Virus record (IMG/VR): IMGVR_UViG_3300037147_000127
Coordinates: 1 to 26,841 of that record
DNA length: 26,841 nucleotides
Origin: a virus
Direction: 5' to 3' (one strand)
Within the stretch, counting starts at the first letter, position 1, and each line of letters begins with the position of its first letter. The position numbers and the translations under genes are program-made. The notes under the pieces are model-generated. The model was not told the origin of the DNA. It saw only the letters and a list, made by a program, of their open reading frames with translations, and made no database searches. Shown here piece by piece: positions 9,815 to 26,841 of this stretch.

Positions 9815-9996
9815 GCGACTCGGAGGCGGGCCTACGTTGCCCGAAATGCCGGTCCACGTGCTCGCGTGTCGTCAACACCCGGCGCCGCTCCGGCGCGGTT
9901 CGCCGGCGGCGCGTCTGTCTCGCCTGCGCGCGTCCGTTCTGTACCGTCGAGCTTCCCCAAGCCGCGGCGGGTGTGAACGTTCACACATCCTCTTGA
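9811..9996 (+). CDS. NrdR-like zinc-ribbon small protein
   Basis: This 61-residue protein overlaps the terminase stop (ATGA). It has CPKC (10-13), then VVNTRRRSG, RRRRVCLAC and FCTVE, closely following the plan of the zinc ribbon at the start of NrdR repressors, but without the ATP-cone domain. It therefore could bind DNA as a small stand-alone ribbon. The last ten codons contain the palindrome GTGTGAACGTTCACAC, so the C-terminal end may not be part of the ancestral protein. Confidence 0.6.
   Translation: MSDSEAGLRCPKCRSTCSRVVNTRRRSGAVRRRRVCLACARPFCTVELPQAAAGVNVHTSS
9971..9986. repeat. 16-bp perfect palindrome, copy 1
   Basis: GTGTGAACGTTCACAC, inside the last codons of the small zinc-ribbon gene. 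Two more copies lie at 16296-16311 and 16343-16358. A perfect 16-bp palindrome found three times in 27 kb is not expected by chance; it may be an operator for a dimeric regulator or a dispersed host repeat. Confidence 0.85.
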
Positions 9997-14808: not shown

Positions 14809-16284
14809 ATGACGATGGCAGCCTTCCTCCGCGGCAAGCCGATCATGCAGCCCTACAGCGTGGGCGCGGGATCGTGCAATGCCGGCGACGTGGTCGTGGT
14901 GAACGACCTGCCCTGCGTCGCCCACGAGGACATTCCGGCGTTCACGGGGGGCGAGACGACCGACTCGCTGGCCGTGTCCGGCGGCATTTACCAGATCCCC
15001 GCCGACGCCGCGTATGCGGACGGCACCTATGTCCTGTGGGACACGTCGAAGCTGCAGGTGACCACGGTCTCCGCCATCACGACCTATCCGTTCGGCTGGA
15101 TCGTCGGTGGCCCGAACGACCTGGCCTCGGACGGCGGCCCGACCGGCGCTGCCAGTTTGGCCTCGGTGCTGCACCATCCGGTTCCCTCCGCGATCTCGGG
15201 CAAGGGGTCGCCCGAGATCAACACGGCCTACACTGCCACGGCCGCCACCGGCACGCTTACCGCCGCGGCGATTGCCGGCGGCGTCATCACGCGCAGCGGG
15301 CCGACCGCGGCGTTCACCGACACGACCGACACCGCCGCGCACATCATCGCTGCGATCCCCGACGCGGTCGCCGGCCAGTCGTTCAAGCTGCAGATCAAAA
15401 ACACCACCGCCTTTGCCGAGACGCTCGTCGGCGGCACCAACGTCACGCTCAGCGGCGGCCAGACGATCATTCCGCCGAACAGCGTCGGCGTGTTCCTGAT
15501 CACGTATGTCTCGGCGACCAGCGTGACGATGCTGGGCCTCTACGTCGTCCCGATGACGACGGACGTCCTCGAGGTCGCCACCGGCCTGACCACGGTCGGC
15601 GCCGGCACGATCACCGCGGCCGGTATCGCCGGGGGTGTCACGCTCCGCACCGGGCCGACCTCGGCGTTCACCGACACCACGGACACGATCACGAATATCG
15701 TGGCCGCCCTGCCCAACGGCAACGTCGGCCAGAGCTGGGAGTACACGTACCTCAATCAGACGCAATACGTGGCCACGCTCGCCGGCGGCACCGACGTTAC
15801 GATCACGCTCAACAGCGGCCAGCTCCTGGTCCCCGGCAATTCCTACGTGCGCTTCCTCGTGACCTACGTCTCGGGGACGTCGATCACGATGGTGCAGATC
15901 GGCGGCGGACTCAACGCCACACTGCCCACTGCCAAATTCACCACGTTCAGCGCGACCACCGGCACGCTCGTCGCGGGCGAGGCCAGCGGTGCGGCCTTCA
16001 CCTGCCTGACCTCGACCAACGCCACGCCCGGCAGCCAGGCCATGCGGACGCCCGCGCAGATCCTGGCCGACACGCCCGGCCTGGTCGTCGGCCAGAGCTA
16101 CATGCTGCTCATCACGAACAGCGGCGGCTCCGGCACGTTGACGCTGGCCACCGACTCCGGGACCGGCTTCACGATGACGGGCACCATGACCGTGGCCAAC
16201 ACCGCCACGAGGCTGTTCATCGTGACGCTGAACAGCGGCACCACGGGCACCGTGCAGGGCGTCTCGATCGGCACGATCGCGTAA
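14809..16284 (+). CDS. DUF2190-like capsid decoration protein with three beta repeats
   Basis: This 491-residue protein follows the capsid gene. Residues 1-125 fit the DUF2190/capsid cement family (GAGSCNAGDVVVVND, then VWD-like YVLWDTS). After a linker come three repeats of about 100 residues: 147-244, 265-364 and 383-491. The first two share TGPT(A/S)AFTDTTDT, (V/N)GQS, LxGGTxVT and ITYVS; the third is diverged and lacks the first motif. The repeats are beta-rich and almost without charge, as in exposed immunoglobulin-like or fibre domains on phage capsids. They may bind carbohydrate or stabilise the shell. GAGAG lies before the ATG; ATG 14815 is an alternative start. Confidence 0.75.
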   Translation: MTMAAFLRGKPIMQPYSVGAGSCNAGDVVVVNDLPCVAHEDIPAFTGGETTDSLAVSGGIYQIPADAAYADGTYVLWDTSKLQVTTVSAITTYPFGWIVGGPNDLASDGGPTGAASLASVLHHPVPSAISGKGSPEINTAYTATAATGTLTAAAIAGGVITRSGPTAAFTDTTDTAAHIIAAIPDAVAGQSFKLQIKNTTAFAETLVGGTNVTLSGGQTIIPPNSVGVFLITYVSATSVTMLGLYVVPMTTDVLEVATGLTTVGAGTITAAGIAGGVTLRTGPTSAFTDTTDTITNIVAALPNGNVGQSWEYTYLNQTQYVATLAGGTDVTITLNSGQLLVPGNSYVRFLVTYVSGTSITMVQIGGGLNATLPTAKFTTFSATTGTLVAGEASGAAFTCLTSTNATPGSQAMRTPAQILADTPGLVVGQSYMLLITNSGGSGTLTLATDSGTGFTMTGTMTVANTATRLFIVTLNSGTTGTVQGVSIGTIA

Positions 16285-16295
16285 CACCGCGGGGA

Positions 16296-16311
16296 GTGTG
16301 AACGTTCACAC
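16296..16311. repeat. 16-bp perfect palindrome, copy 2
   Basis: GTGTGAACGTTCACAC, extended by one pair on each side (16295-16312). It lies 11 bases after the stop of the decoration protein gene, 47 bases centre to centre from copy 3. Confidence 0.85.
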
Positions 16312-16337
16312 TACCGCCAGCCTGCGACACGACGAGG

Positions 16338-16363
16338 GGGGAGTGTGAACGTTCACACTCCCC
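16338..16363. repeat. Palindrome copy 3, extended to 26 bp
   Basis: The 16-bp core GTGTGAACGTTCACAC (16343-16358) is extended on both sides by A/T and four G/C pairs to a perfect 26-bp palindrome. It ends immediately before the ribosome site GGAGGA of the next gene. Confidence 0.85.
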
Positions 16364-16378
16364 GGAGGATTCGCGGTG
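16364..16378 (+). promoter_or_regulatory. Ribosome site deciding a GTG start
   Basis: GGAGGA at 16364-16369, six bases before GTG 16376, adjoining the 26-bp palindrome. A hairpin or bound regulator at the palindrome would sit right against the ribosome site. Confidence 0.7.
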
Positions 16379-16792
16379 GACTTCGCGACGATGGGAATGA
16401 GCTGGCTCAATCAGGAAATCAAGGGCTTTGCCTCGACCGTGCTGACGTACCAGCGGCCGTCGACCAGTGAGACCGCTCAGATCGCCATGGCGATCGGCGG
16501 CAAGCAAAACCCGCTTTACAGCCTGCTCGGCAGCCAGCCGGGCACGCTGGACCTGATCCAGCAGACACCCGAGAACGCGGTCCGCAGCTTTTCGTTCGAC
16601 GCCGGCGACCTGGACTTCACGACGCCCACGCCGGAGACCGGGGACCAGGTCCTGGAAGTCATCAACGGGGTGTCGTGCGTTTTCCAGGTGATGCCGCCGG
16701 TCAGCGGCAAGCTCGCCTGGGAATGGCAAAACGAGTTTCGGCAATCCGGGGCGCGGTACCTGGTGCACACGCAGCTCGTCGCAACGCAGTGA
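16376..16792 (+). CDS. Putative head-tail connector (neck) protein
   Basis: This 138-residue protein starts at GTG behind GGAGGA. An N-terminal helix (MSWLNQEIKGFASTVLTYQR) is followed by beta-rich sequence ending in GKLAWEWQNEFRQSGARYLVHTQLV. The plan (short helix, ETxxYxR, dense strands, PxWRW-like patch, RIHT-like end) resembles small neck or head-closure proteins placed between capsid and tail genes in many siphophages. Position and size support this; no firm family match can be given. Confidence 0.55.
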   Translation: MDFATMGMSWLNQEIKGFASTVLTYQRPSTSETAQIAMAIGGKQNPLYSLLGSQPGTLDLIQQTPENAVRSFSFDAGDLDFTTPTPETGDQVLEVINGVSCVFQVMPPVSGKLAWEWQNEFRQSGARYLVHTQLVATQ

Positions 16793-16798
16793 GGAGTT

Positions 16799-16834
16799 TT
16801 CACCACAGAGAACGCAGAGAGCGCTGAGAGGAAA
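16799..16834. repeat. Degenerate CCACAGAG-type intergenic repeat
   Basis: Starting at ttttcaccacagagaac and ending in a purine run, this 36-base gap sequence resembles one arm of the repeats at 19317 and 24505, without the second arm. It passes directly into the ribosome site AGAGGAAA of the next gene. Confidence 0.4.
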
Positions 16835-16839
16835 TCGCC

Positions 16840-17382
16840 ATGGAGTTCTGGATCGCCGGCATTTTGCTTGTGCTTGTCCTGGCCTGCTGGATCCCGTTGG
16901 TGGCGCGGTCGGCCACGTACACGGGCAAGATGGACGTGACGCGGACCATCACCGGCGAGGGGATTCCGCCCAATTCGAGTTACGTGGTGAACGGTCTCGA
17001 CACGTTGACCACGATGAACGGCGCGACGACGCCGGCGTGCAGCGCCGACGTCTGCTTCACCGAGGCGCTATCGTCCGGCGCGGTGACGATCGACCTCACC
17101 AATATCACCGACCCCGTCCTCGGCACCGTGACGCTCAGCGGCCTGACGCCGTTCATGATTTTGTTCCAGAATCCGTCGGCCAACGCCAACGCCATCACGA
17201 TCGCCGAGGGCGCAAGCAACGGTTACTCGGGCCTCGGCGCCAGCTTCAAGATCGTGCTGCAGCCTGGCGAAGAGTGCCGCATCCTCAAGCAGGCCGCCTC
17301 CGCGGTCGGCAGCGGCTCGAAGACGTTCGACCTGACCGGCACGGGCGCGCAGGCCCTGGGCGTCCAGATCGCAGCGGGGTAA
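16840..17382 (+). CDS. Structural-looking protein with N-terminal membrane segment
   Basis: This 180-residue protein starts at ATG 16840 behind AGAGGAAA. Residues 4-22 (WIAGILLVLVLACWIPLVA) form a strong membrane helix or uncleaved signal. The rest is a beta-rich, nearly uncharged domain ending in KTFDLTGTGAQALGVQIAAG, much like phage decoration or tail domains. A later start, ATG 16930, would remove the membrane part but has no ribosome site. It lies between neck genes, so either a membrane-docked assembly factor or a virion protein is possible. Confidence 0.55.
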   Translation: MEFWIAGILLVLVLACWIPLVARSATYTGKMDVTRTITGEGIPPNSSYVVNGLDTLTTMNGATTPACSADVCFTEALSSGAVTIDLTNITDPVLGTVTLSGLTPFMILFQNPSANANAITIAEGASNGYSGLGASFKIVLQPGEECRILKQAASAVGSGSKTFDLTGTGAQALGVQIAAG

Positions 17383-17385
17383 CCG

Positions 17386-17886
17386 ATGGCCGCGGGCAGG
17401 ATTATCGAGGTCGCGAACTTTGTCGTGGCCGCGCTGAACGCGGACGTTGCCGCGCTCGACGAGAGCGGCGACCCGATCAGCCCGCCGCTGTTCGAGGCGG
17501 ATCGGAGCTATTACGCCGAGTACACGAACGTGCAGCTCGCGACCCTACAGGTCGACGTGCGGCATCCGGCCGTCGTGACGGCCGAGGAATCGCGCGACGG
17601 GACGGAGGACACCTACGGGATCGAGATCGCCCTGCAGCAGACGGTCAACAGAACCGACCAGGCCGCGATCGATGCCCTGGTCACCCTGGCCCGGCGAGCC
17701 GCCCGGACCTTCCCGGTCGCCGCAGTGATGGCGGTCGCCGGCAGCGATCCGGACCTGCTCGACGTCCAGGTCGCCGAGAACGTGCACCTGGTGTTCGACC
17801 CGGACAAGTTGGCGGGCAACCGCTTTTACAGCTCGATTTCCCTGGCCATCAAGGAGTATGCGCCCAACGCGGCGAACGCACAATGA
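17386..17886 (+). CDS. Putative tail terminator / tail completion protein
   Basis: This 166-residue protein begins three bases after the previous stop, with GGGG upstream. An N-terminal helix (VANFVVAALNADVAAL) is followed by a strand-rich core and RFYSSISLAIKEY near the end. This matches the general plan of small tail terminator proteins (lambda gpU-like), and the gene order connector, terminator, gp10-like, tube is usual. It overlaps the next gene by four bases (ATGA). Assignment rests mainly on position and fold impression. Confidence 0.5.
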   Translation: MAAGRIIEVANFVVAALNADVAALDESGDPISPPLFEADRSYYAEYTNVQLATLQVDVRHPAVVTAEESRDGTEDTYGIEIALQQTVNRTDQAAIDALVTLARRAARTFPVAAVMAVAGSDPDLLDVQVAENVHLVFDPDKLAGNRFYSSISLAIKEYAPNAANAQ

Positions 17887-18404
17887 TCGGCGCCCAGCTT
17901 AACGATCTGAAGGTCCTTTGGAACTCCCAGGCCATCATGACGCCGGCGGAGAAATTCCAGTCACGCCTGCTCTTCCAGTTTGGCAGCTACTGCCGGAACG
18001 TCCAGCGCAACTCAATCAAGAAGGCTAATCGCCGTCGCGCCGTCTCCCAAGCCGGGGAGCCGCCGGTCTATCACGAGGTCCAGCTCCCTGGCGGCATCGG
18101 TTACAAAGGCACGATTTTCTATGCAGTGGACCTCCGCAACAAGTCCGTCTCGATCGGCCCTGTACTGCTCAGCCGCAAGGCCGCGATCGGCGGGCGGCCT
18201 CCGCCGGAAGTCCTCGAGCACGGCGGCGTGGCATACCTGGTGATCTCGCGTGCCGCTAAAGTCAGGCGGCGCCATATTTCAGAAACGCTTTCCGTGCGGC
18301 CCATTAATGTCCGCGCCCGGCCGTCGGCGGGGCCGGCATTCCGAAAAACAGTCGACAAAAAGCTTCCCGCGCTGATCGCGGGCGGCATCATGCGGGAGGT
18401 CTGA
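17883..18404 (+). CDS. HK97 gp10-like / minor tail (head-tail joining) protein
   Basis: This 173-residue protein starts at an ATG overlapping the previous stop. An N-terminal helix is followed by a basic stretch (KKANRRRAVSQAGEPP) and, near the end, RPSAGPAFRKTVDKKLPALIAGG. The pattern of Pro-rich motif in the middle and RPxxxPAFxKxxxKLP at the end is common in gp10-like and gpZ-like tail components. It probably acts at the junction of head and tail before tube assembly. Confidence 0.55.
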   Translation: MIGAQLNDLKVLWNSQAIMTPAEKFQSRLLFQFGSYCRNVQRNSIKKANRRRAVSQAGEPPVYHEVQLPGGIGYKGTIFYAVDLRNKSVSIGPVLLSRKAAIGGRPPPEVLEHGGVAYLVISRAAKVRRRHISETLSVRPINVRARPSAGPAFRKTVDKKLPALIAGGIMREV

Positions 18405-18407
18405 TCC

Positions 18408-19310
18408 GTGGGGAAAAACCTTGGCAAAAACAATTGCTTCTGCCTCAACAGCGGCAGCTTCGGTGCGAACAAGTTCGTGCCGATCATCAGCGCGCGCGAC
18501 ATCAAGGTCGCGCGCAAGCCGGCCGCCTCGTTCGACAGCACCGACCGCACCACGCAAATCTCGACGGTCATCCCGGTCCGCCAAAGCGCGGAGGTGACGT
18601 TGTCGGCGATCTGGAACGGCGGCGCCGGCCTTACCGCCCTGCGCAACGCCTGGCTCAATGGCACCGTCCTCTCCGCGGCGGCCTACCTCGAAGGGCCGCC
18701 GGCGACGGGCGCCTATGGTCTTATTGGCGACTGGATCGTCTCGAAGTTCCCGATCAAACAACCGCTCGCCGGCGGCCAGATGATCGACATCACACTGCAG
18801 CCCGCGGCCAACTACGTCAACCGCGTGCAGATCTTCACCGACGCTACCAGCGGCACGCTCGGCACCGCCGAAACCCAAGTCAACAAAAAGGTCGGCTTCA
18901 TCGCCTCCGTCAATACCACGGGCGGCACTCCGGTCCCGACCGCGCGGGATATTTCCTGGTCGCTCGAATGGCAGCTCGAGGAAGCCAGCGATCGCGCCCA
19001 GGAGGAGGACGGCAACGGCATCGCCTTTCAGCAGTACCTCTGCTGCCTGCCCAAGGTCAGCGCCGAGTTCGAGGTGATCTGGAACAACGCCGTCCACAGC
19101 GCCTTCCGCACGGCCTACGACAGCGGCAACCCGATCACGCTGTATTTCCTCGACGGTCCCTACGCCACGTCCGGGAGCTGGGGCCCGTACACCGACTGGG
19201 CGATCACCGACTTCCCGGTCGACGCGCCGCTGCTCGACGGGCAAAAAGTCAAAATGAAATTCGAGCCGCACGGGCTGGCGACCAACTTGTTCCAATACCG
19301 CACGTCGTAA
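18408..19310 (+). CDS. Major tail tube protein with internal duplication
   Basis: This 300-residue protein starts at GTG behind GGGAGGT. It looks like two copies of one tube domain: residues about 31-132 and 171-287. Matching parts are SAEVTLSAIWNG and SAEFEVIWNN, ALRNAWLNG and AFRTAYDSG, AAYLEGPPATGAYG and LYFLDGPYATSGSWG, IGDWIVSKFPIKQPLAGGQ and TDWAITDFPVDAPLLDGQ. Tube proteins polymerise around the tape measure; here each chain would supply two units of the hexameric ring, or three chains would make one ring. A hairpin repeat follows, as expected if this abundant protein needs more transcript than its neighbours. Confidence 0.75.
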   Translation: MGKNLGKNNCFCLNSGSFGANKFVPIISARDIKVARKPAASFDSTDRTTQISTVIPVRQSAEVTLSAIWNGGAGLTALRNAWLNGTVLSAAAYLEGPPATGAYGLIGDWIVSKFPIKQPLAGGQMIDITLQPAANYVNRVQIFTDATSGTLGTAETQVNKKVGFIASVNTTGGTPVPTARDISWSLEWQLEEASDRAQEEDGNGIAFQQYLCCLPKVSAEFEVIWNNAVHSAFRTAYDSGNPITLYFLDGPYATSGSWGPYTDWAITDFPVDAPLLDGQKVKMKFEPHGLATNLFQYRTS

Positions 19311-19316
19311 ACACAA

Positions 19317-19430
19317 AAAAGCCTAACCACAGAGGCACAGAGGCACAGAGGAAGACCACAGAGGAAAATTTGGGTGGAACGCTTCTCTGTGAGTTTCTCT
19401 GTGCCTCTGTGTCTCTGTGGTTAGGCTTTT
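19317..19430. repeat. CCACAGAG-type inverted repeat, terminator-like
   Basis: The arm at 19317-19353 (starting aaaagcctaaccacagag) and the arm at 19395-19430 (ending tctgtggttaggctttt) pair with few mismatches. A-rich and T-rich ends make it look like a terminator in both directions. The stem is internally repetitive (cacagagg units). The same family occurs at 24505-24606. It fills the gap between the tube gene and the ribosome site of the chaperone gene. Confidence 0.8.
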
Positions 19431-19447
19431 GAATTTTGGAGGGACCG

Positions 19448-20029
19448 ATGGAATATCCGAGGACTTTCACCGACGGCTTGGGCCGGGAATGGACGCTGGA
19501 GTTTTCGCTCGCGGCCGGCCGGCGGCTGCAGGAGTTCGCCGGCGTCACTACCGAGCAGCTTGTGCCGGATCCGCGCGCGAAAAACAAGGAGGATGCGGTG
19601 TTGCCGGTGGTCAACCTGCTCGGCGATCCGTTCCAGGCGTTCGGCGTGTTCTACGCCCTGGTCAAGCCCGCGGCGGACGCCAAGGGGCTGTCGCGCGACC
19701 AGCTCCTGGAGGGCTTCACCGACGACTCAGTCTCGGAGCGTCTGAGCAAGGCGATCATCGGTGCGTTACTTTTTTTTTCCCGGAATGCCCCGCAGAAGAC
19801 GGCGGCGCTCCGGACGCTGGCGGCGAACTGGGATCAGTTCCTGGGGCGGATCAACAAGAGGATCGAGAGCGGTATGAGCAAGCTCGATTTTGGCGCAGCT
19901 CTGGACGCCATGCCCGAGATCGACGTCGAGGGGTTGAATCGGCAAATTGCGGAACGATCGAGGAGCTTTGCTACTGGATCGGCGGCTTCGTCGGGCTCGA
20001 CCCCGAAACCCATTCCCTGCGTCAGCTGA
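19448..20029 (+). CDS. Tail assembly chaperone G-like protein
   Basis: This 193-residue protein starts at ATG 19448 behind TTGGAGGG. The position between tube and tape measure genes, the mostly helical sequence and the overlapping downstream frame match the lambda gpG plan. The last 30 residues (SRSFATGSAASSGSTP...) look like out-of-frame extension. A run of nine T (19770-19778) lies inside it as T_TTT_TTT in the right phase for slippage, and a G_GGG (19930-19933) lies where coding character switches to the other frame. Confidence 0.75.
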   Translation: MEYPRTFTDGLGREWTLEFSLAAGRRLQEFAGVTTEQLVPDPRAKNKEDAVLPVVNLLGDPFQAFGVFYALVKPAADAKGLSRDQLLEGFTDDSVSERLSKAIIGALLFFSRNAPQKTAALRTLAANWDQFLGRINKRIESGMSKLDFGAALDAMPEIDVEGLNRQIAERSRSFATGSAASSGSTPKPIPCVS

Positions 20030-20340
20030 AGTGGGCCCAGCGCGGCGAGAAGTCGCGGCTGTGCATGGAGCAAGATTCCGACTGGGACCGTGCCTGTCTG
20101 ATCGCCTATTTCTCGGGGAATGCCAAGGACGCCAAAGGTCCGGATGAGCTGAACGTGACACTGAGGCGCACCGATCGGGAGCGGATCGAGGACGACCAAT
20201 GGCTGGCGGAGCAGGTCGAGCCCGGGACAGACGACACCGAGGAAAGCTGGATAGCCGAGGCCACCCGCAATGCTCCTGCCCGCCCTGCTGCTGTGCCTGA
20301 CGGCCGCAATCCTGTGGATGGCCAGCAAAAGCTCGATTGA
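19448..20340 (+). CDS. Tail assembly chaperone GT-like fusion made by -1 frameshift
   Basis: The frame reached by slipping back one base stays open to 20340. From about 19945 it has clear coding character (TIEELCYWIGGFVGLDPE, then LRQLKWAQRGEKSRLCMEQ and ACLIAYFSG), with no start codon of its own nearby. This T part resembles the T extension of GT proteins, which bind the tube protein while G binds the tape measure. If slippage occurs at the G run, protein would read DVEG then VESANCGTIEE. If it occurs at the T run, about 50 residues of unlikely sequence would be included, so the later site fits the coding pattern better although it is a weaker slip sequence. The end overlaps the tape measure gene. 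Confidence 0.65.
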
Positions 20341-23212
20341 GGCTGGCCGCGGCCACGTCACCCTCGGCGTCAACATCGACCCGCTGGTCAAGGGGCTCGA
20401 AGCAGCACAAAAGAAATTCGCCGCCTGGGGCAAAGGCATGGAGGTCGCCGGCGCCGCCATGGGCGCGGCCAGCACCTCGATGCAGGCGCCATTTATTTAC
20501 GCGCTGCACGTCCTCACCGAGGACGGCAACCACCTTTACCAGGTCGCCCGGCAAACCGGGATCTCGATCGCCGAGCTGGGCCCGCTCGCCTACGCCACCG
20601 GCGGCGACCTCGACGCCCTGGCGACGGCCGTCCGCAAAATGAACAGCTTCCTCGAGCAGGCCTCCCACGCGGCCCCCAACGCCCAGCGCGCGCTGAACGA
20701 GCTGGGCCTGACCTTCCAGGAGCTGAACGGCCTGACCACCGAGCAGCGCCTGGAGCGGATCGCCGACGCGCTAAGCCACGTCCACGACGCCGGCCAGCGC
20801 TCCGCCCTGCAGACGCAGATCCTCGGCCGCGCCGCCGGCGCCCTCAACCTCTCCGGCGGTCAGGAGGGCCTGCAGCGGCGTCAGGAAAATGCCCGACGCC
20901 TCGGCGTGCTGTCGCCCGAGGACGTCGCCCTGGCCCGCCAACTCAGCGTCGCGGAGCGCGAGTTGGGCACAGCTACCCGGACCACTTGGGGCTTTATCGG
21001 CGCTGCCGTCGCCCCCTACATGACCACCTTCGTTCGGCAGGTCACCGAGATCGTGCTGGTGATCCAGCATTGGGTGCGCGAGAACGGCCCGCTGCTGTTG
21101 ATCCTGTTCAAGGTCGCCGAATGGGTGGGCATTATCGGCGGCGTGATCGGCGCCCTGGGCGTCGGCATCTACGTGGCCAGCTTCGCGTTTTCGTTTTTGG
21201 CCGGCGCCGTCGGCATCGTCGGCGCTGCGCTCAGCGCGCTGTGGGGGTTCGCCGTCTTCGCGTCGAGCGGCTTCGGCATCCTCGGCGCCTCGGTGTTTAG
21301 CTGGTCCACGATCACGAGCGCGGCGAGCGGTATTGCCACGGCCGCAATGTGGGCCTGGGGTGCCGTCGTCGGCGTAGTGACTGGCGTGCAAAGCGCCTAT
21401 AACGCGGTGCTGGGCATATTCGGGCTCGGCGCCACGGCCGCGGCCGGTGCTTCTGGCACAGCGGCGGCGGCTACCGGCGCCTGGGGCATCGTCACGGCCA
21501 CGGCCAGCGGAATCGCCACGGCCGCAATGGCTACGTGGGCGGCGGCAGTGTTTGCCGTGCAGACGGCGCACGCGATTGGCCTGTTCGCGGTCACCGGGTT
21601 TGGCCTCGCCACCGCGGCGGCAACGGCGTTGACCTGGCTTGACAACGCGGCACTCGGCGTGTGGACCGCCGGCACAATCGCGGCCTCGATCGCTTCCAGC
21701 GCCTGGACGGCGGCCGTCTGGCTGCTTACCACGGCGTACGCGGCTTCGACTGCTTCGCTGTGGGGCTTCGGTGCGGTCGGTGTTGCGATGGATGTGCTCA
21801 GCTTCGCAGCGGCGGCCGGGGCGGCGGTGTGGAGCGCCGCGACATGGGCGCTGAGCGCGGCGACGACGGTTGCTACCGCCGTGCTGGGAATCTTCACCGG
21901 GGCGACCGCAGCTTCGACTGTATGGGCGTGGGCGAGCAACGCCGCTTTGGGAGTCTGGGCCGGCGCGGTTTGGCTGGTCAGCGCAGCCCACGCTGCCGCA
22001 GTTGGAGTGCTGGCATTGTTTACCGGCGCGACCGTGGTTGCGCAGGCCGGCACGCACGGCTTTTCTTTGGGCCTGATTTTTGCGTGGATTTGGGAAAATA
22101 TCGCCAGTGCCGGCATCTACTTGCTGGTGACGGCCATTGGCGTGCTGATCGTAGCCCTGGGTGCCGTGGCGCTTGCTCTCGGCGCGGGCGTGCTGATCGC
22201 ATTTGTTGGGCTGCTCGCCGACCTCGTCGTCGAATCCGGAGTGGCGCAGTCTGCGTGGGGACAGTTCGTGGATTTTTTCGGCGCGACGGCGGGTCGCGCG
22301 TGGGAATCCTGCAAACAGGCGTTCGCGGGAATCCTCGACACCGTTAAGACCACGATGGGCGGCGTCATGGACGCCGTTTCTGCCGGCAACTGGGGGCTCG
22401 TTTGGGACCTCGTGAAAACGGGCGCGGAACTCGCATGGCGGCAAATCACGCTGTTCGTCCAACAGCAATGGATCATTTGGAAAGGCGCTGCCCTCGACGT
22501 TTGGCACACGATCACCGATTGGCTCGAGGACGCCTTCCATGACGTGGTGACGTCGATCGAAGTGCTTTTCGCAATGACGTGGAGCGAAATCGGCGACAGC
22601 TTGAAAGAGACGTTCGCCGGTATCTTCGACTGGATCGCCAGCAAGATCCACGATGTAATGGCAACCATCCTCACGACCGTCGCCAACGTCTTTCGCGCTC
22701 TCTGGCAGACTGACAGAGCAAACGCCGCCCAAACTGCGGCCGCCGAGCAGACGGCATTGGCGACGACGCCGGCCGCGGCGACACCCCGCACCCCGGCAGC
22801 CATCCGAGAGGCGGCTGCCGAGGCTCAGCGCGCGCGCGACGCCGCGCGACGCGAGCGCGCCCGCATTGCCGCGGAACTGGCGGCAGCGGAAACGGCCGGT
22901 CTGGATGACGGCGAAATCGATCGGCTGCGCGAGCGGCTCCAGACCCTCCGTGACGACGCACACGAAGAAGCGGCGATGCGCGAATGGATGTCCCAAACCG
23001 GAGAGGCAGGCCCGCACGGCGGCGAGGAGGGCTTCACCTCCAAGGCCAAGGCCGGCCCAGGCTCGTTCTTCGCCGACGCCCTGGCCGGCATGTTCGGCGC
23101 CGGCGGGGCGACCGTGCAGGACCGCCAATTGCGCGCGCAGAATCGTACCAACCAGCTCCTGGCGGAAATCGCCAGCCGGCTGAACAGGATGGACGGCGGA
23201 GCATTCGCGTGA
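20318..23212 (+). CDS. Tail tape measure protein
   Basis: This 964-residue protein sets tail length and helps DNA cross the host envelope. I prefer ATG 20318 (MASKSSIEAGRGHVTLGVNI), because that beginning is typical of the family; ATG 20270 would add 16 residues read in the coding frame of the chaperone. Residues about 40-220 are helical with amphipathic repeats. About 220-640 is very hydrophobic, Ala/Trp/Gly-rich and built from degenerate repeats (for example SGIATAAM twice, 60 residues apart). From about 825 to 895 there is a long charged coiled coil. The C-terminal end (RTNQLLAEIASRLNRMDGG) is usual for tape measures. It overlaps the T frame by 23 bases. Confidence 0.85.
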   Translation: MASKSSIEAGRGHVTLGVNIDPLVKGLEAAQKKFAAWGKGMEVAGAAMGAASTSMQAPFIYALHVLTEDGNHLYQVARQTGISIAELGPLAYATGGDLDALATAVRKMNSFLEQASHAAPNAQRALNELGLTFQELNGLTTEQRLERIADALSHVHDAGQRSALQTQILGRAAGALNLSGGQEGLQRRQENARRLGVLSPEDVALARQLSVAERELGTATRTTWGFIGAAVAPYMTTFVRQVTEIVLVIQHWVRENGPLLLILFKVAEWVGIIGGVIGALGVGIYVASFAFSFLAGAVGIVGAALSALWGFAVFASSGFGILGASVFSWSTITSAASGIATAAMWAWGAVVGVVTGVQSAYNAVLGIFGLGATAAAGASGTAAAATGAWGIVTATASGIATAAMATWAAAVFAVQTAHAIGLFAVTGFGLATAAATALTWLDNAALGVWTAGTIAASIASSAWTAAVWLLTTAYAASTASLWGFGAVGVAMDVLSFAAAAGAAVWSAATWALSAATTVATAVLGIFTGATAASTVWAWASNAALGVWAGAVWLVSAAHAAAVGVLALFTGATVVAQAGTHGFSLGLIFAWIWENIASAGIYLLVTAIGVLIVALGAVALALGAGVLIAFVGLLADLVVESGVAQSAWGQFVDFFGATAGRAWESCKQAFAGILDTVKTTMGGVMDAVSAGNWGLVWDLVKTGAELAWRQITLFVQQQWIIWKGAALDVWHTITDWLEDAFHDVVTSIEVLFAMTWSEIGDSLKETFAGIFDWIASKIHDVMATILTTVANVFRALWQTDRANAAQTAAAEQTALATTPAAATPRTPAAIREAAAEAQRARDAARRERARIAAELAAAETAGLDDGEIDRLRERLQTLRDDAHEEAAMREWMSQTGEAGPHGGEEGFTSKAKAGPGSFFADALAGMFGAGGATVQDRQLRAQNRTNQLLAEIASRLNRMDGGAFA

Positions 23213-23223
23213 GGCAGGTTGAT

Positions 23224-23281
23224 CCGCAGATTTCACAGATTTGCGCAGATTTCAATCTGCGCAAATCTGTGAAATCTGCGG
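23224..23281. repeat. Perfect 28-bp inverted repeat with two-base centre
   Basis: Arms 23224-23251 and 23254-23281 are exact inverted copies of ccgcagatttcacagatttg and onward, built from cgcagattt/cacagattt units. It starts 11 bases after the tape measure stop and ends 18 bases before the next ATG. It is a different repeat family from the CCACAGAG type, and similar cgcagattt repeats are known as dispersed intergenic elements in many bacterial genomes. A terminator or RNA-stabilising hairpin is possible. Confidence 0.85.
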
Positions 23282-23299
23282 AGAAAACTGGGGTGACCG

Positions 23300-24499
23300 A
23301 TGGCAGTGATGAACGTCAACGGGATCTCGATTATCGAGAAGCCCATGCAGGAGGGCTCGATCCAGTTCAAGGGCCCGACCGCCAAGCGGGTCTACGCGCT
23401 GACGGGCTCGACGCAGAAGTTGGCTATCCAGATCGCGGTCATTACCGCCGCGCCCCAGACCGAGACCAGCATTTCGAGCACCGGGCAGCAGCTCAGTCTC
23501 TTCCTGGACAAGGTCTCCGTCAAGGAGATCGGCGGCGGCGTCTGGGAGGCGACGTGCGATTACGCCGACACGCCGCAGCAGTTCGATTTGAAGTTCAATA
23601 TCGGCACTCAGACCGTCAAGCGGCAGCAGGCCCTGGAGCATATCGCCACCTACGACTGCATTCTCGGCGGCGTGCTGATGGGCGACGGGGCGTTCACGTC
23701 CGGGATCCCCGATTTCAACGGGGCGATCGGCGTCAGCGAAACTGAGGTTGCCGGCGTCGATGTCGAGATTGCCAAGATCGAGTTCACAATCACGCTGCGG
23801 CTCAACACCGCCAACCCGATCGGCTTCGACGGCCAGCCGCTGAGTCCGCTCTATTTTTGGCAGGTCGCGAACATCACGCCCTGCGTGAACGCCACCGATT
23901 TGACGATCATCTACAAGGGCCAGACGTTTCTGTTTCCCAAGGGCAGCGTGCTGTTTCGCGGCGCGCCGATGAGCACCAACAGCGACACGCAGCTCGACAT
24001 CACGTTCATGTTCGCTTACTCGAAAAACCTCACCGCGACAGCCGCGGATTGGGTGAGCACCGAGACCTATCAGATCGGCTCCCAGGTCACCTACAACGGC
24101 TACCTCTTCACCTCGACGATGGTGGGCAACCTGGATAACGCCCCGATCGGCAACGCCTGGTCGACGTCGGCTACGTACCAGGTCGGCGATCTGGTGATCT
24201 TCAACGGCGCGATCTACGAGGCGCTGCAGGTGACGACGGGGAATCAGCCCAACATTTCGGCGGCACAATGGAACGCCGTCGGCAGTTCCTCCTGGACGCC
24301 GAACGGCCCGTCCGTGCCCGCGCTGGTGGTCGGCGCCTCCGACCCGATCATCAAGGAGGGCTGGTGGTATGCGTGGCCCTGGTACAAGACGGGCACGAGC
24401 GGAGGCACCGCTCACCCGTTGCCCACGGCGATCGTGGTTGATCGCGTGTATGACTACGGCGACTTGGCGCTGCTGGAGATCCCGAGCACGACGAACTGA
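23300..24499 (+). CDS. Distal tail protein with two chitin-binding-type modules
   Basis: This 399-residue protein starts at ATG 23300 behind GGGGTG. Residues 1-250 form a mixed, strand-rich domain of the sort found in distal or baseplate-hub proteins right after the tape measure. Residues about 251-287 and 288-326 are two short modules of the W...Y..G..V.Y.G..(Y/F)......W type (WVSTETYQIGSQVTYNG; ATYQVGDLVIFNG and GNQPNISAAQW), as in family 5/12 carbohydrate-binding modules. The last 70 residues return to tail-like sequence. The modules probably stick out and bind a polysaccharide on the host; substrate unknown. Confidence 0.65.
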   Translation: MAVMNVNGISIIEKPMQEGSIQFKGPTAKRVYALTGSTQKLAIQIAVITAAPQTETSISSTGQQLSLFLDKVSVKEIGGGVWEATCDYADTPQQFDLKFNIGTQTVKRQQALEHIATYDCILGGVLMGDGAFTSGIPDFNGAIGVSETEVAGVDVEIAKIEFTITLRLNTANPIGFDGQPLSPLYFWQVANITPCVNATDLTIIYKGQTFLFPKGSVLFRGAPMSTNSDTQLDITFMFAYSKNLTATAADWVSTETYQIGSQVTYNGYLFTSTMVGNLDNAPIGNAWSTSATYQVGDLVIFNGAIYEALQVTTGNQPNISAAQWNAVGSSSWTPNGPSVPALVVGASDPIIKEGWWYAWPWYKTGTSGGTAHPLPTAIVVDRVYDYGDLALLEIPSTTN

Positions 24500-24504
24500 T
24501 CGGC

Positions 24505-24606
24505 CTAACCACAGAGACACAGAGGCACAGAGGAAAGATCACAGAGAAGATTAACCCAATGAATTCCTCGGTGAGTTTCTCGGTGCCTCTGTGCCTCTGT
24601 GGTTAG
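24505..24606. repeat. CCACAGAG-type inverted repeat, second copy
   Basis: Arms ctaaccacagagacacagag (from 24505, through 24528) and gtgcctctgtgcctctgtgg (from 24583, through 24606) pair at 23 of 24 positions, one being a G-T pair in RNA. The loop contains gtgagtttct, also found in the copy at 19317. It fills the gap before the fibre gene, which starts 21 bases later with no clear ribosome site. Confidence 0.8.
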
Positions 24607-24627
24607 TTCTTCGATTCGAGACCAGAA

Positions 24628-26205
24628 ATGGCTGACCCATTCAAAAAGGTCCGCGCCGGCGACCGCTTCAACGGCTCGATCAGCGCCGACCTGTACAACC
24701 TGCTCGTCGATATGGCTCAGCGCTATGTCCGCGAGCAGCGCGGCGACTTCCACGCGCCGCCGAGCAAGGGCCCGGGCGACTTGTCGCTGCGGATCCAGAA
24801 CGCCACGCCCAGCCCCGGCATCGACCTGCCCCAGTACGCCGTCGTGGGCATCGGCGCGCCGCTCGTTGTGCCGGCGGAGACCGACACGTCGTTCTTCGGC
24901 GCGACCTATTTCGGATCGGCCGCGCCGGTGGCCGGCCAGCCGTTCGCGATCTTGCAGCGGCCGGCGACGTGCGGCACGTTTGACGGCAAGGGCAATGTGA
25001 TCTCGCCGGGCGACATCCAGCCGGCGCTTGTCGTCGGCATGACCTTCGCCATGGTCGATATCGGCACAGTTGGGGATGGTTTTGCCGACTGCGGCACCGG
25101 CAACTATGCCAATTTGTTCAGCAACAATACCGGCGTCGGCCAGGTGCAGATCCTCTGGACCGAAACACAATTGACCGGCGTTCAATGGACGCTTGTGCGA
25201 TTCCTGGACGTGGGCGTCGCTTCGCAGGCGGCGACCACCACTACCATTTTCGACTGCCTCGACGGAAGCCTCTATACGATCACTCTCACCAATGGGATCG
25301 TCACCAACGTGGTGGTCACGCCGGCATGCTGCGGCAGCGGAGGCGGAGGGAGCGGCGGAAGCGGCGGCGGTGCGTACGTTGGCTCGATCGGCTTCAGCCT
25401 CGGATGCGGTTATTCGATCGCGTGCATGGGCTTGCCGGCGGCACTCGATTTGCCCTACTGTTTGACGTACGACGGCGTGGTTGGCGGGTTTCAGCAATGG
25501 AGCTACACGGCGTCCGGCGTTTCGATCGTCGTAAACCACGTCGGCTGCATTTGGTGGGTCAGCGCCACTTTCGGAACCATCGTTGTCGGCGGCTGGTATC
25601 TCGACCCGACCTGCGGATCGTCGCCGCCGGCGACGATAGCGATCTCCAACGGCGGCCTGGGCGGCGGGACCGCCTGCAATTTCAACCTCACGACCTTTTG
25701 TCCCAATCCAAACAACTATTGGTGCGTGCAAAACAACGCCAATGGCATTTACGCGTGTCTGATCGACGGCTCGCTTAGCCCACAACCGGTGAGTGTCGGC
25801 GAAACCGTCACGTGGACCGGAAATACTGGAGTAGTGCTGAGCGGGCCGTATGCGGACGCCGGAACGTGTGCCGGCGTTTGCAGCACGCCGCCGAGCTGCT
25901 GTGGCTGCACAGAAGGAGCTACGCTCAGTTTCACCGTTACCGCGAAAACGGGATGCTTTACAGGGTGGCCGAACTCTGGCACCGTCACTTGTCACGACGG
26001 CGGCTGGTCGTTTCCGTCAGTCACTGCGTGCTCCGGAACCCAGCAAGCGTCTATCGGCTGCGCCAACAGCACTGATCCGCCTGTGCTCGACTACGTCGAC
26101 TTTGAAGTGACGGCCCAATCTGGATATACCTGCGACCCGACTTTTAGTGCGGTGTTCCTGCTAAATGACGGCGCGGGCAACTCCTGCACAATCACGGTGG
26201 CCTGA
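24628..26205 (+). CDS. Putative tail fibre / receptor-binding protein, Cys-rich
   Basis: This 525-residue protein has two parts. Residues 1-230 are a virion-type domain (MADPFKKVRAGDRFNGSISA, with strand-rich sequence such as VVGIGAPLVVP). A glycine/serine linker (about 235-250, CGSGGGGSGGSGGG) leads to a C-terminal region of about 275 residues with some twenty cysteines, many Trp/Tyr/Asn, and almost no charge. Disulfide-rich sequence points to an extracellular part. Position after the distal-tail gene fits host recognition. Base composition appears lower in G+C in the second part than in the first, consistent with domain swapping. No enzyme motif was found. Confidence 0.65.
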   Translation: MADPFKKVRAGDRFNGSISADLYNLLVDMAQRYVREQRGDFHAPPSKGPGDLSLRIQNATPSPGIDLPQYAVVGIGAPLVVPAETDTSFFGATYFGSAAPVAGQPFAILQRPATCGTFDGKGNVISPGDIQPALVVGMTFAMVDIGTVGDGFADCGTGNYANLFSNNTGVGQVQILWTETQLTGVQWTLVRFLDVGVASQAATTTTIFDCLDGSLYTITLTNGIVTNVVVTPACCGSGGGGSGGSGGGAYVGSIGFSLGCGYSIACMGLPAALDLPYCLTYDGVVGGFQQWSYTASGVSIVVNHVGCIWWVSATFGTIVVGGWYLDPTCGSSPPATIAISNGGLGGGTACNFNLTTFCPNPNNYWCVQNNANGIYACLIDGSLSPQPVSVGETVTWTGNTGVVLSGPYADAGTCAGVCSTPPSCCGCTEGATLSFTVTAKTGCFTGWPNSGTVTCHDGGWSFPSVTACSGTQQASIGCANSTDPPVLDYVDFEVTAQSGYTCDPTFSAVFLLNDGAGNSCTITVA

Positions 26206-26841
26206 TGATGCACGCCAACGCATTCAAACACACGGGTTGCATCGGCGAGGGCTGTCCGCACTGCCCCAAGCTGGACTTACCGGGCAACGAGGCGATGCGT
26301 GCTCACCTGATGGGGTTGCCGGCGCTGGCGACGGGCCCAAAGGCGCCCGCCTCCCGTTACGGCACCGCCTGCGTACACCGCGGCGCTGCGCTCCCCGAGC
26401 TTGCCTGGTGTGATACATGCCAGGCCGGCAAGCAACGGAATGTGCCGCTCTACGCGTGTAGCGTGCACGGGCAATGCACCGTCGAAAAAAAGGGCTTCGC
26501 AGGACGCGATAGCCGCGCGCCGGCCGAGCCGTGGTGCAGGGTGTGCCCCGACAAAACCGTCTTGGCGCCCGTGTTGAAGCGCAACCTGCTCTATCACGTT
26601 TACCCGGTTGCCGGCAACGGAGTCTGGCAATGGAACGTGCGGCAGATCGTGCGCCGTCTCGGCCAATTCAACGGGCGTCGCATCGTCGCGATCATGACCG
26701 AGCCGGGCCCGGTCACCATCGGCCGATACGGCGGCAGTAAGCCGCGCTTGAACGCCAGCATTGACCGGCCGTCGGCGGTGCGCGCCGAGTTCGGCGCGCA
26801 CGACGTGGTGTTTTTCGAGCTGCCGAACGACCCGCAGTTTC
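26205..26841 (+). CDS. Partial protein with Cys-rich N-terminus, unknown function
   Basis: The ATG overlaps the previous stop by one base (TGATG), so it is coupled to the fibre gene. The frame is open to the window end (212 codons seen). The N-terminus has CIGEGCPHCPKLD, then C-rich stretches (CDTCQAG, CSVHGQC, CRVCPD), suggesting several metal sites. From about residue 127 the sequence changes character (NLLYHVYPVAGNGVWQWNVRQ, then GRRIVAIMTEPG and HDVVFFELPND), reminiscent of proteins of planctomycetes with a glycosyltransferase-like or nucleotide-binding fold; that resemblance is from memory and unproven. A role in modifying a surface sugar near the tail genes would make sense but is only inference. 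Confidence 0.65.
   Translation, partial: MMHANAFKHTGCIGEGCPHCPKLDLPGNEAMRAHLMGLPALATGPKAPASRYGTACVHRGAALPELAWCDTCQAGKQRNVPLYACSVHGQCTVEKKGFAGRDSRAPAEPWCRVCPDKTVLAPVLKRNLLYHVYPVAGNGVWQWNVRQIVRRLGQFNGRRIVAIMTEPGPVTIGRYGGSKPRLNASIDRPSAVRAEFGAHDVVFFELPNDPQF

Follow-up and report, generated by a model that had tools for sequence, protein, structure and literature searches.

Heptad repeats in the late operon

The window analyzed here is the full-length, 26,841-base IMG/VR virus contig IMGVR_UViG_3300037147_000127. Its late genes run head to tail from the portal gene to position 26205 and leave six gaps of at least 40 nucleotides (nt), a count that leaves out 20030–20269, which is partly traversed by an overlapping open reading frame (ORF) at 19417–20340. 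Four of these six gaps contain repeats of tandem 7-base units (heptads), arranged as three strong hairpins and one solo arm. We hypothesize, and consider somewhat probable, that these repeats are exchangeable hairpin elements of one intercistronic class that act on mRNA in the manner of repetitive extragenic palindromic (REP) sequences. The four repeats are as follows:

16802–16832, + strand: solo arm of tandem heptads CACAGAG / CGCAGAG / CGCTGAG, 9 nt past the stop codon of the head-tail joining gene
19317–19430: gene-less heptad hairpin of CACAGAG type, arms 19317–19353 and 19394–19430, 95% complementary
23215–23290: gene-less heptad hairpin of CGCAGAT/CACAGAT type, arms 23215–23251 and 23254–23290, 3′ of the tape-measure gene
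24503–24606: gene-less heptad hairpin of CACAGAG type

An arm consists of three tandem heptads with 1–3 spacer bases, either three CACAGAG units or three CGCAGAT/CACAGAT units, and the hairpin loops measure 2–40 nt and contain no gene. Ungapped arm complementarity is 95% for the hairpin at 19317, 92% at 23215 and 90% at 24505, and the first arm of the last hairpin shares 97% identity with the arm at 19321 across 33 nt. The window contains 15 copies of CACAGAG where 2.6 are expected, and none of 100 shuffles reached this count. RNA folding yielded −82.7 kcal/mol (z −11.9) for 19309–19446, −57.7 kcal/mol (z −11.8) for 23210–23300 and −57.9 kcal/mol (z −6.3) for 24500–24627, and none of 200 shuffles matched the fold energy of any of the three; the solo-arm stretch 16790–16842 did not fold by itself (z −1.0). 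The three hairpins fit a heptad-arm class, defined by inverted arms of at least two tandem 7-mers, and the solo arm represents one arm only.

A preliminary description of this DNA had placed two CCACAGAG hairpins at 19317 and 24505, a cgcagattt hairpin at 23224 and a one-armed copy at 16799, filling four gaps of the operon, and both the positions and the gap filling were reproduced. It had treated the cgcagattt repeat as a different element, which does not hold, as this copy has the same build of three tandem heptads per arm. The reported position just before ribosome sites was recovered in part: purine-rich sequence resembling a ribosome site stands 3′ of the copies at 16799 and 19317 and, in weaker form, of that at 23224; none is evident ahead of the ATG at 24628. 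The GAGAGG end of the solo arm may itself provide the following gene with its ribosome site. The sharper regularity is how close the repeats stand to the stop codon upstream, all four starting 2–10 nt past it; the hairpin at 19317–19430 begins 6 nt behind the stop codon of the gene for the putative major tail protein and ends 17 nt ahead of the next ATG.

The hairpins could also act mainly as intrinsic terminators or attenuators of transcription within the operon. The hairpin at 19317 ends in GGC-UUUU-GAAUUUU, and in G269, the nearest phage relative, the gap that follows the gene of the putative major tail protein holds a terminator-like hairpin with six T behind it. As the main function this is highly improbable, since the copies at 23224 and 24505 lack a U run at the stem and further tail genes, the tape-measure gene among them, are located downstream. 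A terminator scan reported none of the three hairpins on the + strand; it allowed loops of 3–8 only and was blind to the two large ones.

Distribution of the arms and gene-bearing relatives

The 16-mer core of the arm, CCACAGAGNCACAGAG, was found in at least 119 IMG/VR stretches, and among the matches listed 29 of 34 facing-core pairs span 59–264 nt. The longer arm GCCTAACCACAGAGNCACAGAGGCACAGAG occurs in GTDB on two contigs only, one from a metagenome-assembled genome (MAG) of the Gemmataceae (G001), the other from a gammaproteobacterial MAG (G002). The Gemmataceae genome contains 68 matches to the core, and at least one match is present in 38 of 246 Planctomycetota genomes. The terminase family of the window is encoded in 53 of 392 genomes of this phylum. 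The earlier suggestion of a host-type element is supported at this level. An ORF stop lies within 0–20 nt, on one side or both, for 46 of 108 tandem-arm hairpins, compared with 55 of 1080 random positions, which served as the control in place of other intergenic hairpins. The IMG/VR contigs L012 and L016 each display several hairpins of differing heptad families within 11–14 kb.

In several genomes, GxxExxY genes (TIGR04256) are situated between opposite-strand core matches. To sample this arrangement, 40 of the first 41 of 61 rows were taken with their flanks, one at a contig edge being omitted. Inverted arms within 300 bp (score at least 16) flank 35 of these 40 genes. The controls gave 0.7% for 735 random windows and a single case among 84 ORFs of 100–170 amino acids (aa). 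At least three units at no more than two mismatches are present in 33 of the 35 left arms, a count for which two arms were shortened by hand and which has no control. Most of the arms consist of tandem heptads, a single type being used in each element, e.g., CACAGAG, CGCAGAT, CACGAAT, CGCCAAG or CGCAAAG; the CRC-type pattern fits 30 of the 35 left arms, and at least two others (L210, L213) look unrelated. One arm that resembles those of the phage is CTAACCACAGAGGCACAGAGACACAGAGA, from the L212 element. The active site D..ExK..QxxxY is retained in 35–37 of 38 aligned proteins, two broken or partial sequences of the 40 being omitted. Both proteins scanned matched PF13366, one of them with an additional weak, sub-cut-off match to Cas4, and no relative was found among solved structures (best E 0.26). 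A passage of PMC8934634 describes a cas4-adjacent case in which a pipeline returned the GxxExxY domain alone. An enrichment of GxxExxY in repeat-rich genomes was set aside as too weak: the gene is present in 11 of 13 such genomes and in 6 of 13 that lack the 16-mer.

A similar arrangement, with other letters, surrounds genes of the four-helix protein associated with 23S rRNA intervening sequences (IVS; TIGR02436, PF05635). Inverted arms of 7–9 base units flank 29 of 41 such genes, sampled from 40 stretches, compared with 1.7% of 629 random windows; at a stricter score the values are 23 of 41 and none. Random windows are the control here, the ORF control belonging to GxxExxY alone. Because these kin carry GxxExxY or IVS-type genes between their arms, the phage hairpins can be read as gene-less members of the same class.

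Bacterial gaps that retain a hairpin and exchange its sequence

Three bacterial gaps were compared, namely dnaK–dnaJ, purH–purD and the gap behind a gene for a resistance–nodulation–division (RND) adaptor, with heptad families named by eye from the sequence. In G002, a GCCTAACCACAGAGNCACAGAGGCACAGAG-type hairpin lies between dnaK and dnaJ, and the identity of both genes was confirmed. The dnaK end was recovered from 21 of 22 genomes of the family to which this MAG belongs, and a hairpin stands behind dnaK in all 20 gaps read, a count that omits L276 (contig end) and five paralogue matches (L294–L298). The families present are CACAGAG, CGCRGAG, CGCAAAG, ATGGG-type, GTGAGG-type and GTAGC. In L286, an IVS-type gene (PF05635) sits between heptad arms. 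L284 and L285 encode DnaK proteins 98.9% and 99.3% identical to that of L286, and in both an ATGGG hairpin replaces the IVS-gene element. In L290, positions 1828–2240 behind dnaK comprise an early-stopping IVS-type ORF and then a CACAGAG hairpin at the contig end; one element type has apparently landed on another. The L289 gap contains a different palindromic repeat together with a worn heptad relic.

On a DnaK tree with 19 typed rows (L276 and L289 omitted), the seven types must have changed at least 11 times, or 8 times with the three CR types pooled. The letters change and the pairing is kept: across nine CR-type dnaK–dnaJ sequences, none of 17 consensus pairs is broken and five display double changes. 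Ten of 11 purH–purD loci, counted without the 23-base match L365, contain a full hairpin, drawn from four families, and the remaining one (G248) is collapsed. Retention is thereby strong at two of the three bacterial gaps. An ORF of 110 aa after the RND-adaptor gap had no family match. Second hairpins were also seen at another gap of the purH locus, probably ahead of purH, with swapped families of GAGTGAG and CACGGAT types (L354, L356, L359, L360, L361 and L362).

Phage relatives and prophages

A terminase probe retrieved 43 IMG/VR loci, one of which is a near-identical contig (99.98% identity to the window, without gaps). Tandem heptads after a stop codon are present in three of the 42 non-identical relatives, G269, G278 and G279. 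Together with the window, these are four heptad-bearing phages, and in each of them the gap that follows the gene of the putative major tail protein holds heptads, with four different families among the four. In G279, a single family, GTRCCTRA, recurs behind at least six stop codons; its pattern was detected in 22 viral stretches, two of them from G279’s own record, and in none of 246 Planctomycetota genomes. Some phages may own heptad sets of this kind, with one family recurring over many late-operon gaps. At the place of the 24503–24606 hairpin, G269 (L343) has a 172-aa ORF flanked by inverted GATCAGT-type heptads, situated between the homologues of the window genes at 23300 and 24628. Probes with the major tail protein, capsid and tape-measure sequences returned only the near-identical contig among viral contigs; the capsid probe found no relative in GTDB genomes, and an annotated phage collection gave no match to the tail protein and distant matches only to capsid and terminase.

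Among 20 planctomycete terminase stretches from 17 genomes, clear heptad hairpins are present in two, both from G388, and a third has one doubtful array. The two G388 stretches, whose phage genes mark them as prophages, share 86% identity across 15 kb, and their tape-measure ORFs match that of the window (blastp E 2e-6 and 2e-5). In the gap before the tape-measure gene, one carries three CACAGAG units and the other three CACAGAT units, families that resemble the two of the window. Both arrays follow the same TAAAGRCATTTTT and share an outer CCACAGA, and the last base of every unit differs; the BLAST blocks of the pair (86–87% identity) break only at this heptad gap and at about 6.0 kb.

This pair bears on a different history, in which heptad arrays arise in place through replication slippage and fold-back template switching, without transfer between sites. 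The shared outer CCACAGA with a uniform change in every unit is what such a process would produce, as are units that are alike within an element, arms that change together and, with each site evolving alone, the family differences. We nevertheless judge it rather improbable, considering that one family occupies many places per genome (the 68 core matches of G001, the GTRCCTRA units of G279) and that gene-bearing forms occupy the same site.

Proposed role and its evaluation

The class as we understand it comprises inverted arms, each of about three tandem 7-base units (CRCRRAN in the branch of the window), placed just behind a stop codon. Longer members hold in the loop a gene for the GxxExxY PD-(D/E)XK nuclease or, with other units, for the four-helix IVS-type protein. 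Copies may spread or swap between gaps via their arms, perhaps with help from the nuclease, and like heptad arms may let one element overwrite another. The phage would have acquired its elements from a host, probably a planctomycete, and solo arms such as 16802–16832 could be collapsed hairpins. In mRNA, the hairpin may work like a REP element, as a block to 3′ exonucleases or as a site of RNase III cleavage, shielding the upstream message, e.g., that of the major tail protein, and leading to unequal levels of neighboring operon genes. Such control would be in line with higher levels of DnaK than of DnaJ, and of major tail protein than of chaperone and tape measure. A role of the hairpin in mRNA could explain why place and fold are kept and the letters are not; the hairpins look like exchangeable RNA-control parts and not plain debris.

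The elements might instead be selfish, akin to host miniature inverted-repeat transposable elements (MITEs) or REPs, that insert recurrently behind stop codons, collapse, and are tolerated in gaps with no effect on expression. Their many copies and patchy spread in bacteria, the several families in one contig, the remnants of collapsed hairpins behind the RND adaptor gene and in the purH–purD gap of G248, and the lack of visible heptads in most phage relatives are all in keeping with this. We consider it unlikely overall, since no empty site was seen in 20 dnaK–dnaJ and 11 purH–purD gaps despite many family changes, and since double changes preserve pairing. For the phage itself a purely selfish reading is possible, as many relatives do without the repeats. 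The preliminary description had offered tolerance only in gaps as one of its two explanations; homologous gaps can keep a hairpin with a swapped family, which pure tolerance fails to predict, and tolerance is therefore not the whole story. Its other explanation, attenuation between proteins needed in differing amounts, appears consistent with the kept gaps and with the heptads after the putative major tail protein gene in four of four phages. The filling of the same gaps in relatives, which it had named as a check, was observed for this gap in G269, G278 and G279, and not in the stretches analyzed of the 39 others.

Several observations weigh against control of mRNA by exchangeable class members. 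All three bacterial gaps were selected for the hairpin that G002 has at each of them; in the DnaK tree, support falls below 80 for 8 of 18 inner branches; and behind the RND adaptor gene the full hairpin is found in G002 alone, with collapsed remnants in two of three genomes. On the side of the gene-bearing forms, no GxxExxY gene was found in the viral loci L005–L125, it is missing from 2 of 13 repeat-rich genomes, and 12 of 41 IVS-type genes lack flanking arms at the same score. The phage comparisons add further points: the near-identical contig offers no insertion polymorphism; after-stop heptads are absent from the stretches of 39 of 42 terminase relatives, many of them short and without tail genes; and heptads are absent from 17 of 20 planctomycete prophage stretches, and six of those 17 have a match to the putative major tail protein. 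The repeats after the tail protein gene in G269, G278 and G279 are short or one-armed with weak folds (z −3.2, −1.9 and −2.2), the G269 array scoring below the scan threshold. As regards attenuation, G269 has just 12 nt in the gap behind its tape-measure gene, and no strong hairpin there.

Genes around the repeats and further features

The genes adjoining the repeats are listed below:

16376–16792, + strand: phage head-tail joining protein gene (PF25138)
18408–19310, + strand: putative major tail protein gene, named for its similarity to a G279 protein and its place before the chaperone and tape-measure genes
19448–20029, + strand: putative tail assembly chaperone gene, named by position alone, with no family match
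20270–23212, + strand: tape-measure protein gene
23300–24499, + strand: late gene with a CBM_5_12 carbohydrate-binding domain
24628–26205, + strand: late gene with homologues in relatives, function not assigned

The putative major tail protein has no family match of its own; it is similar (39% over 60 aa) to the G279 protein, which matches the PHROG 1407 major tail protein, and its structure model was too poor to be used (mean predicted local distance difference test score 49). The frame-1 ORF 19417–20340 overlaps the putative chaperone gene, with a T run near 19770, and a programmed frameshift of gpG/gpGT type is possible. Small ORFs reading through the heptad arms are probably annotation noise. 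A search of 16000–26841 against Rfam returned 13 matches to microRNA families and one to an archaeal RNA; none reached the gathering score, and they were judged to be chance matches arising from long hairpins.

Another strong hairpin lies at 2–88, at the contig start and 5′ of the first ORF (−69.7 kcal/mol over 1–110); in G269, a hairpin at 2459–2528 stands ahead of the homologue of that ORF. A perfect palindrome, GTGTGAACGTTCACAC, is present at 9970–9985, 16295–16310 and 16342–16357; with up to two mismatches allowed, 0.06 occurrences of its 14-base core would be expected. Two of the copies form a long hairpin within one gap. Among 342 loci it was seen only in the near-identical contig and in G269. 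It looks like an operator, distinct from the heptad repeats.

Comparison with known systems

The window elements share with REP sequences, bacterial interspersed mosaic elements (BIMEs) and REP doublets (REPINs), a group associated with the REP-associated tyrosine transposase (RAYT), the form of short palindromes between genes with many copies per genome, and the REP sequence between malE and malF protects the upstream mRNA. They differ in that their arms are tandem heptads and their kin carry a PD-(D/E)XK nuclease gene. As described in part of PMC3733652, the REP/REPIN palindrome bears a GTAG or CGTC tag at one end; none of GTAG, CTAC, CGTC or GACG occurs in the four window copies or in the 10 nt on either side of them. 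The likeness to MITEs lies in the three window hairpins as gene-less inverted repeats with gene-bearing relatives, in which GxxExxY stands between like arms. No clean empty site that would reveal a target duplication was seen, the G388 pair displays a swap and no gain, and the nuclease would be a candidate for moving the elements.

IVSs of 23S rRNA with an S23p ORF are viewed, in the portion of PMC4990558 drawn on, as selfish elements excised by RNase III. The PF05635 gene inside the dnaK–dnaJ element recalls them, whereas the elements described here lie outside rRNA and the phage copies have no S23-type gene in the loop. Heptamer repeats themselves have been reported from Xanthomonas (GGGAATC; 70 convergent pairs in one genome and 75 in another; PMC4692102), Geobacter (GGGACCG; PMC2700814) and Beggiatoaceae (TAACTGA; PMC4679880). 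In the sections of these papers used here, they agree with the window elements in the 7-base unit, the few copies and the largely intergenic location, and no link is made to GxxExxY or IVS-type genes, to families swapped at homologous gaps, or to phages. Nor did excerpts of the open-licence literature searched include a paper connecting heptamer repeats to GxxExxY genes, swapping at fixed gaps or phages, and GxxExxY is scarcely named in that literature. We rate as known, from these partial sources, heptamer repeats in single groups and IVSs with S23p genes, and the window class as one of REP/MITE-like intergenic hairpins. Linking heptamer repeats with GxxExxY yields a testable element with arms, a loop gene and a preferred place, and sites that keep the hairpin and change its letters constitute a natural experiment on selection for mRNA control in phages and their hosts. 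In what we draw from PMC4423207, intergenic stem-loops in selective RNA processing resemble the elements of the window in their proposed effect on stoichiometry.

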